From Oscillatoriales cyanobacterium PMM_0019 (GTDB lineage Bacteria > Cyanobacteriota > Cyanobacteriia > Cyanobacteriales > CASBRB01), in assembly GCA_949127975.1 (NCBI GenBank), contig CASBRB010000300.1:1-36836 (forward strand): a DNA stretch of 36,836 nt, written 5' to 3'. The notes beneath the pieces are model-generated. The model was given only the letters and a program-made list of their open reading frames with translations. It was not told the DNA's origin and did no database searches. Made by a program: the position numbers and the translations under genes. This document shows positions 13,283 to 34,160 of this stretch, piece by piece (within the stretch, counting starts at the first letter, position 1; every line of letters begins with the position of its first letter).

Positions 13283-13445
13283 CATCTCGTTCCTAGGCTC
13301 TGCCTGGGAACGCCATCCCAGAGGCTCTGCCTCGTGTCTCGTTCCTGGGCTCTGCCTAGGAACGCCATCCCAGAGGCTCTGCCTCGTGTCTCGTTCCTGG
13401 GCTCTGCCTGGGAACGCCATCCCAGAGGCTCTGCCTCCTTATAAC
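13283..13445. repeat. REP-like array upstream of the RAYT gene
   Basis: Three tandem units starting near 13289, 13341 and 13393 (period 52 nt). Each has the palindrome GTTCCTAGGCTC...GGGAAC followed by AGAGGCTCTGCCTC. The array ends about 15 nt before the transposase ATG. Confidence 0.9.
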
Positions 13446-13459
13446 TTATAGGTAACACT

Positions 13460-13993
13460 ATGGGACGCAGCCGCTACCATGTATTAGGAACCCAGCCGCA
13501 CTTTCTCACCTGCACAGTAGTCAATTGGATACCTATATTCGGTAAAATTGAACTAGCACAAATTATTCTAGACTCACTAAGTTTTCTACAACAGCAACAA
13601 CGTCTAGCATTGTATGGTTATGTGATTATGGAAAACCATCTCCACCTGATAGGCTCTGCTGCAAGTCTGTCAAAGGAGATAGGTAATTTCAAATCCTTTA
13701 CCGCTCGGTCTATTATTGAATTACTTAAAAAGAACCGTGCAAATTATATACTCGATCGACTTAAGTTTTACAAACTACAACACAAAGATAACCAGGAATA
13801 TCAGGTTTGGCAAGAAGGATTTCATCCGCAAGCTATTCTGAGTGAGGAGATGTTTAGACAAAAGTTGGATTATATTCACTATAATCCGGTGAGGCGAGGG
13901 TATGTAGACGATCGGGCTCATTGGCGGTACTCTAGTTACCGTAATTACATGGGGGAGCCAGGGTTGCTGATGGTGGAGTTGATTGATTTGTGA
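13460..13993 (+). CDS. REP-associated tyrosine transposase (RAYT, TnpA_REP-like)
   Basis: 177 aa, Y1/HUH transposase fold related to IS200 TnpA. The HUH motif is at 60-62 (ENHLHLIG), preceded by ALYGYVIM, and the C-terminal half has the RAYT hallmarks VWQEGFHPQAI and YIHYNPVRRGYV followed by HWRYSSYRNY. It starts at the ATG 13460 in the sequence AACACTATGGGACGC. The gene is bracketed by REP-like palindromes in opposite orientation (13283-13445 and 13994-14111), the standard layout in which the enzyme recognises single-stranded REP hairpins. Two further loci here keep the ends of this unit but have lost the interior (14507-14572 and 33953-34013). The full-length copy is uninterrupted and so could be active. 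Confidence 0.92.
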   Translation: MGRSRYHVLGTQPHFLTCTVVNWIPIFGKIELAQIILDSLSFLQQQQRLALYGYVIMENHLHLIGSAASLSKEIGNFKSFTARSIIELLKKNRANYILDRLKFYKLQHKDNQEYQVWQEGFHPQAILSEEMFRQKLDYIHYNPVRRGYVDDRAHWRYSSYRNYMGEPGLLMVELIDL

Positions 13994-14111
13994 GGGGAGG
14001 TAGAACCTTTTGCAAGGCTTTCCCAGGTAGAGCCACCGGAAACGAGAATCACGAGAATTGCAGGAGGCAGAGCCTCCTGTAAGGCAACGAGAATCGGAGC
14101 CTGGGAACGAG
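13994..14111. repeat. REP-like sequences downstream of the RAYT gene
   Basis: Follows the transposase stop directly with GAGGGGAGGTAGAACC, then TCCCAGGTAGAGCC and GGAGGCAGAGCCTCC, in the orientation opposite to the upstream array. The copy is somewhat degraded compared with those at 14573 and 34014. Confidence 0.8.
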
Positions 14112-14289
14112 TATCGGGGGAGGCAGTTTTGTTACAAACTTTAACCAAATTCACAAATTAAAGCATCATCGCTCGATCGCGCAAGTGATATACTTTACCC
14201 AATTAGTAGGGAATTTTAGGGGACGCAGCTACCTGCGATGAATCCAAGCAACCAGTGTCACAGGTTAGGGGTAGCAACTTTAATTAGGG
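14112..14289. other. Spacer between the two RAYT-derived loci
   Basis: About 180 nt without a gene or clear repeat; separates the full RAYT unit from the deleted one. Confidence 0.5.
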
Positions 14290-14490
14290 CTTCTCGTTCC
14301 TAGGCTCTGCCTGGGAACACCATACCAGAGGCTCTGCCTCGTGTTCTCGTTTCTCGTTCGTTTTTCTCGTTCCTAGGCTCTGCCTGGGAACGCCGTACCA
14401 GAGGCTCTGCCTCGTGTTCTCGTTTCTCGTTCGTTTCTCGTTCCTAGGCTCTGCCTGGGAACGCCGTACCAGAGGCTCTGCCTCCTGATA
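14290..14490. repeat. REP-like array of the first RAYT deletion derivative
   Basis: Units start at about 14296, 14369 and 14440 (periods 73 and 71 nt). They have the same GTTCCTAGGCTCTGCC palindromes as the array at 13283, but a longer TTCTCGTTCG-containing spacer. Confidence 0.88.
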
Positions 14491-14506
14491 ACTTATAGGT
14501 AACACA

Positions 14507-14572
14507 ATGGGACGCAGCCACTACCATGTATTAGAAAACCAGCCGCACTTTCTCACCTGCACAGTTTTGTGA
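14507..14572 (+). pseudogene. RAYT internal-deletion derivative 1 (21-codon minigene)
   Basis: Starts in the same context as the full RAYT (TAACTTATAGGTAACAC then ATG) and keeps its first 20 codons with few changes (MGRSHYHVLENQPHFLTCTV), then joins at once to the last bases of the gene (TTTTGTGAGGGGAGG). The HUH motif and all the rest of the enzyme are deleted. The junction remains in frame, giving a 21-residue reading frame ending at TGA. REP sequences flank it as for the full gene, so it looks like a non-autonomous element whose ends could still be recognised by the enzyme encoded 500 bp away. Confidence 0.9.
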
Positions 14573-14640
14573 GGGGAGGCAGAGCCTCCTGCAAGGCATT
14601 CCCAGGCAGAGCCTGGGAACGAGAATCAACGAGAATCAAC
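14573..14640. repeat. REP-like end of RAYT derivative 1
   Basis: GGGGAGGCAGAGCCTCCTGC then ATTCCCAGGCAGAGCC and GGGAACGAGAATC; same as the downstream end at 34014. Confidence 0.88.
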
Positions 14641-33671: not shown

Positions 33672-33679
33672 TTATTTCT

Positions 33680-33935
33680 CGTTCCTAGGCTCTGCCTGGG
33701 AACGCCATACCAGAGGCTCTGCTTCCTATTCTCGTTCCTAGGCTCTGCCTGGGAACGCCATACCAGAGGCTCTGCTTCCTATTCTCGTTCCTAGGCTCTG
33801 CCTGGGAACGCCATACTAGAGGCTCTGCCTCCTATTTTCTCGTTCCTAGGCTCTGCCTGGGAACGCCATACCAGAGGCTCTGCCTCGTTTTCTGGTTTCT
33901 GGTTCGTTTCTCGTTCCTAGGCTCTGCCTCCTTGT
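33680..33935. repeat. REP-like array of RAYT derivative 2
   Basis: Units begin with GTTCCTAGGCTCTGCC at about 33681, 33734, 33787, 33842 and 33913; the first periods are 53, 53 and 55 nt. Tandem and nearly identical, so recently amplified. Confidence 0.92.
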
Positions 33936-33952
33936 AACTTATAGGTAACACA

Positions 33953-34013
33953 ATGAGACCAAGCCACAAATTACTCTAGACTCACTAATTTTTCTGCAAC
34001 ACCAGCTTGGTGA
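33953..34013 (+). pseudogene. RAYT internal-deletion derivative 2
   Basis: Begins in the same context as the full RAYT (TAACTTATAGGTAACAC, then an ATG), keeps about 18 nt of the gene start, then a second segment matching 13559-13594 of the full gene (AAATTACTCTAGACTCACTA, then TTTTTCTGCAACA), and then the gene end GTGAGGGGAGG. So two interior stretches were lost. No useful reading frame remains (TAG after eight codons). REP-like sequences flank it on both sides. Confidence 0.88.
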
Positions 34014-34160
34014 GGGGAGGCAGAGCCTCCTACAAGGCATTCCCAGGCAGAGCCTGGGAACGAGAATCAACGACAATCAGACATTCACGAGAATTCTAGG
34101 AGGCTCTGCCTCCTGGAAGGCATTCCCAGGCAGAGCCTGGGAACGAGAAACACGAGAATA
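34014..34160. repeat. REP-like downstream end of RAYT derivative 2
   Basis: Two tandem units of GGCAGAGCCTCCT...AAGGCATTCCCAGGCAGAGCC then TGGGAACGAG, about 80 nt apart, in the opposite orientation to the upstream array. The last unit ends 12 nt from the recQ-like stop codon. Confidence 0.88.

Follow-up and report, generated by a model that had tools for sequence, protein, structure and literature searches.

RAYT units of the window

Three related units bounded by REPs lie on the forward strand of the window, the whole 36,836-nt stretch of DNA that was analysed (Table 1). Unit A holds an intact RAYT gene, and units B and C retain only remnants of one. The unit A protein scores 106.9 bits against NF047646 REP_Tyr_transpos (REP-associated tyrosine transposase), above the family-model cutoff of 80, and so belongs to the RAYTs; its match to Pfam Y1_Tnp is weak, and it matches the solved TnpAREP 4er8 at E=4e-5. 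Comparison with relatives and with 4er8 reveals the HUH motif ENHLH and the catalytic-tyrosine motif DYIHYNP. The dN/dS ratio is ~0.05-0.15 for the 11 relatives with computable dS and, judged on sequence grounds, the gene is under purifying selection. Ribosomes may bind the gene at AGGTAA within the leader, and leader-like gene starts are also present in relatives. The gene stands between two inverted REPs, the arrangement of a REPtron, with a proximal right REP that no longer folds (-4.6 kcal/mol, z +0.6 against shuffles). This decay speaks against unit A as an autonomous transposon, the role given to it in the preliminary description.

Table 1 Features of the three RAYT units in the window
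Feature	Position	Strand	Description
Unit A, whole	13284-14115	+	REP array, 17-nt leader, intact RAYT gene, inverted REPs; last REP ends 14111
Unit A 5' REP array	13285..13440	+	three ~50-nt copies, period 52; hairpins fold, z -4.2
Unit A leader	13442-13458	+	TAACTTATAGGTAACAC, 17 nt
Unit A RAYT gene	13460-13993	+	intact, 177 aa; motifs ENHLH, YIHYNP
Unit A proximal 3' REP	13994..14050	+	inverted, decayed; folding no better than shuffles
Unit A second 3' REP	14061..14111	+	palindrome 1 intact, palindrome 2 disrupted
Unit B, whole	14291-14640	+	REP array, leader, ATG, gene end, inverted REP
Unit B 5' REP array	14291..14486	+	three copies, spacing 73 and 71; folds, z -4.7
Unit B leader	14489-14505	+	identical to unit A leader TAACTTATAGGTAACAC
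Unit B remnant frame	14507..14572	+	RAYT codons 1-20 joined to last codon and stop; junction 14565/14566
Unit B 3' REP	14573..14627	+	inverted, intact; pairs with 5' REP, 51 nt, 88%
Unit C, whole	33676-34160	+	leader, ATG, different internal deletions, stop at codon 9
Unit C 5' REP array	33676..33931	+	four copies and a fifth REP shortened by deletion
Unit C leader	33935..33951	+	identical to units A and B
Unit C RAYT remnant	33953..34006	+	codons 1-4/5 fused to about codons 33-46; frame closed by a stop at codon 9
Unit C gene tail and 3' REP	34007..34067	+	TTGGTGAGGGG, intact REP; right breakpoint as in unit B
Unit C second 3' REP	34098..34149	+	further 3' REP of the unit

The coordinates bear out the common layout that had been described for units A and B, from REP array through leader, ATG and gene end to inverted REP. 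The two match over 135 nt at 93% identity (E=2e-54), far beyond chance. From its ATG at 14507 unit B reads MGRSHYHVLENQPHFLTCTVL and a stop (14570-14572), 21 codons in all. The join is CACAGT followed by TTTGTGAGGGG, where nucleotides 60-527 of the parent gene (468 nt) are absent; with unit A taken as parent, the microhomology at the join is 0 nt. The loss of the gene interior is thus real, covering codons 20/21 to 176, but the last codon (TTG), which had been counted as lost, is retained together with the stop. The right REP of unit B folds at -16.4 kcal/mol (z -4.4), and the unit as a single strand at -57.5 kcal/mol (z -9.6). Its inverted REPs can form the hairpin of a REPIN, being complementary at 88% over 51 nt.

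Unit C, absent from the preliminary description, was found in the same stretch by a genome-wide search with the unit B core. It carries several unrelated deletions, and the one that shortened its fifth 5' REP probably lay between GGCTCTGCCT repeats. The right REP of unit C folds at -15.8 kcal/mol (z -4.2), a value for this REP by itself. Because the unit C frame stops at codon 9, the retention of a 21-codon frame in unit B is probably due to chance; the frame is present as described, and the meaning attached to it finds no support.

Relations among the three units

Exact copies of the leader number three in the 5.7-Mb genome, every one of them in a RAYT unit. When two or three mismatches were allowed, there was no excess over a reversed-pattern control (39 matches in all versus 53). 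The exact leader with its ATG had no match in the species-genome collection or in viral contigs, from which records near the source genome were possibly left out. The idea that the leader is ordinary REP spacer, without relation to RAYTs, is accordingly rejected for the source genome.

The flanks of the three units are mutually dissimilar, with local scores of 9-11 against a shuffled mean of 9.0 and maximum of 15. This shuffled-level similarity rejects a tandem segmental duplication that included the flanks, and argues that the unit itself, from REP to REP, was what was copied.

Units B and C share features that unit A lacks: ACACAATG, AGCCAC at codon 5, and ATACCAG in the 5' REPs. Across the gene tail and right REP, identity is 93% for B-C, 81% for A-B and 78% for A-C, and in the 5' REPs B-C identity is slightly above A-B. 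Only the leader with the first five codons favors A-B (92% versus 87%), the reason being extra changes in C. A sister relationship with C is therefore more probable for unit B than direct descent from A. As for the earlier proposal that A is both parent and likely helper of B, the intact RAYT could act in trans, but the grouping of B with C lends the parentage no support. The sequence comparisons do support an origin of unit B by internal deletion in a copy of a RAYT unit, although not clearly of A; its parent was possibly another, unsequenced RAYT copy.

The interior losses of B and C differ. Codons 1-20 and about 33-46 survive in one or the other, which means that the ancestor of the two carried a more complete gene. 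The right breakpoints of B and C coincide to within 1-2 nt, at parent nucleotides 526-528, a distance of 7-9 nt upstream of where the stop codon ends. This shared 3' breakpoint could reflect one common event followed by a second loss.

Perfect matches to TTNGTGAGGGGAGGNAGA in the source genome are confined to the three units and a solo REP on contig C66. The latter (C66:335-397, locus L007) is a 3' REP within a short tandem repeat. It starts with AGCTTGGTGAGG, as the REP does in unit C, and a moving or duplicating REP unit may begin at this point.

Copy number and mobility in the source genome

The unit B core gives 159 REP-type matches in the genome, many of them overlapping or paired at one site. 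The genome-wide search for the leader found no amplified family carrying it, the leader with a RAYT remnant or gene being confined to the three sites; B and C are thus not dispersed in many copies in the manner of REPINs. A different REP-bounded miniature element does recur, with 43 matches to its 84-nt interior (some being fragments of one locus), the best of them 97-99% identical; C361:2912-2997 and C463:1764-1840 are examples. We rejected derivation of this interior from the RAYT unit, as only TTCTCGTTTCTCG-type spacer is in common. The abundant non-autonomous element of this genome is thus made of REP ends and a non-RAYT interior, and nothing shows movement of B or C after their deletions. 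The preliminary description saw in unit B a step from an autonomous to a non-autonomous transposon. The internal deletion that it named is there; its mobility finds no support, given the single copy of each derivative and the other interior of the amplified element. That no derivative was amplified suggests that gene loss alone does not yield a successful REPIN.

RAYT units and relics in other genomes

The source genome is alone in its family within the genome set drawn. RAYT matches at E<=1e-20 were found in 16 of 120 genomes of the order, the source genome included, and nearly always once per genome. A query with the leader and gene start over 245 genomes returned full or broken RAYTs, with such short derivatives in the source genome only. 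The DNA search of the order scored two candidates per genome, so that relic counts are lower bounds.

The neighborhoods of 80 RAYTs from public genomes held no comparable relic, except at L161, in a deltaproteobacterial MAG that also has a full RAYT, and at L158, where a C-terminal fragment lies. The second RAYT copy at L161 is 93% identical to its neighbor and lacks the part from codon 124 to just before the REP. Two other relics lie in genomes that have a full RAYT as well: L197 (UBA11372) lost codons 68-149, and L198 (Anabaena catenula) has two deletions. At L236, L233 and L200 the internally deleted RAYT is the only copy seen in each genome. When deletion endpoints are aligned, the right ends of B and C coincide, while the right ends of relics in other genomes mostly fall at different points of the gene (codons 120, 149 and 149). 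Microhomology across the relics is 0-5 nt, which fits slippage or end joining. L237 was not counted as a relic with the B/C right breakpoint, because its 3' match is ~8 nt and the alignment is ambiguous.

Full units in more than one copy are also found. Planktothrix rubescens has two at distant sites (L246 and L247), 82% identical over 871 bp, whose REPs match in cross arrangements too. Another genome of the order has two related units at distant sites (84-89%), one of them interrupted.

Origin of units B and C

The reading that we favor, and hold to be probable, is that B and C go back to REPtron copies, of which internal deletion has left decaying relics that are at most potentially non-autonomous. 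Among its support is that all three units have REP ends, RAYT sequence and an exact copy of the leader in common. By this account, the shared anatomy and unrelated flanks would reflect copying of the whole REP-to-REP unit to three sites within the 37-kb stretch, either driven by RAYT or through REP recombination, and A would be the copy that kept its gene. The copying may have gone by recombination between REP arrays rather than by transposition. In the B/C lineage the interior would have been lost by separate deletions joining a 5' part of the gene to the last codon, beside the foot of the right-REP hairpin, presumably through slippage of replication at the hairpin or through nicking by RAYT. 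Since B and C retain both REP ends, mobilization in trans by the RAYT of unit A is possible in principle.

Ordinary pseudogene decay of duplicate RAYTs, with no role for REPs and no link to transposition, overlaps with this explanation and is a serious contender, to which we give slightly less than an even chance. Internal deletion of only-copy RAYTs (L200, L233 and L236), the short microhomologies and the unrelated deletions of unit C are what such decay would leave. It does not explain why the REP ends of B and C fold well when the proximal right REP of A has decayed, nor why B and C share a right breakpoint.

That shared breakpoint, together with the join at L161, gives a hint from sequence of a role for the REP hairpin or for RAYT cleavage; it stays a hint because other relics break elsewhere. 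One specific form is that the right breakpoints of B and C were made by enzyme, either by RAYT nicking next to the right REP or through insertion of a REP unit starting at the last codon. The agreement of B and C within 1-2 nt, the L161 copy that joins just before its REP and the solo REP on contig C66 that begins like unit C would fit, as would the cuts of E. coli TnpAREP, described as made at CT 5' or 3' of the REP in the part of that study consulted (PMC8266576). We nevertheless regard this form as unlikely: there is no CT at the unit B junction, other relics have their ends at different places in the gene, the tail sequence that A, B and C share beyond the REP favors deletion within a whole unit rather than a newly inserted REP, and the events are few and were compared post hoc. 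It is rather improbable, too, that RAYT units generate their own gutted derivatives in general, in which RAYT nicking, or replication stalled by the hairpin, would set the right end of the deletion at the base of the right REP, so that REP pairs with shrinking remnants would become REPIN precursors.

Just as little do we expect unit B to be an active non-autonomous REP transposon (REPIN- or MITE-like), derived from A and moved by its RAYT: the paired REP ends with their strong single-strand fold, the intact motifs of the RAYT and the proposed origin of REPINs from REPs flanking an IS200-like element (PMC3116915, in the passages covered) would suit it, but B and C are single copies without an amplified leader family, A is not the closest unit to B and has a decayed proximal right REP, and the amplified REP-bounded element has another interior.

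Comparison with known systems

MITEs can form from insertion sequences by internal deletion. Units B and C resemble them in keeping their ends, in having lost the transposase interior and in the presence of a full copy nearby. For an origin of B as a MITE of A, the internal deletion is seen, yet B groups with C rather than with A. Unlike MITEs, B and C are unamplified single copies, and RAYTs, in the passages of Bertels and Rainey 2011 that were covered (PMC3116915), are proposed to be single copy and not to mobilize themselves.

RAYTs between inverted REPs are well described (Nunvar 2010, PMC2817692), and RAYT/REP units are also known in cyanobacteria (PMC6006769; GTAG-REP survey, PMC3733652). 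As in the REPtron or RAYT unit of the sections consulted (PMC2817692, PMC3733652), the gene here lies between inverted REPs with a REP right after the stop codon; unlike there, two of the three units have no gene interior. Two inverted REPs forming one long hairpin are shared with the REPIN as outlined in PMC3116915, whereas B and C have a RAYT remnant as their loop and occur singly instead of in many copies. The TnpAREP subclass 2.4, as excerpted from PMC6006769, is like unit A cyanobacterial, with NHxH and WQ motifs and long REPs; its pattern is NH[IFV]H, WQ and YIxNNP versus NHLH, WQ and YIHYNP in unit A (many relatives have YIHNNP), a comparison of motifs only.

An origin of REPINs from REPs flanking an IS200-like ancestor was proposed by Bertels and Rainey 2011 (PMC3116915), and within the open-access passages covered the intermediates of this RAYT-to-REPIN route are undocumented. 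Units B and C and the relics elsewhere show that REP-to-REP units missing most of the RAYT gene exist, and they are candidate intermediates of that route. We met no description of internally deleted RAYT units in the part of the open-access literature covered, outside which an earlier one may exist. That a genome sometimes holds two or more related RAYT units, as here and in Planktothrix and the genome of the same order, bears on the view of RAYTs as single copy and non-self-mobile.

Other insertions and repeats at RAYT loci

Two RAYT genes contain inserts. At L199 (G235:C1:3822300-3824000) the insert is ~160 nt long, its inverted ends are of the AGAGGGTGTTTGAAAAGT type and have TA on their outer side, and it is MITE-like of the Tc1/IS630 type; at L238 (G278:C31) it is ~100 nt and lies near codon 140. 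Repetition of gene-end 12-mers in 3' REP arrays is clear at L199, L216 and L160, most other matches being near chance. At L216 and L160 each repeat of a tandem array comprises the 3' REP along with the last RAYT codons and the stop.
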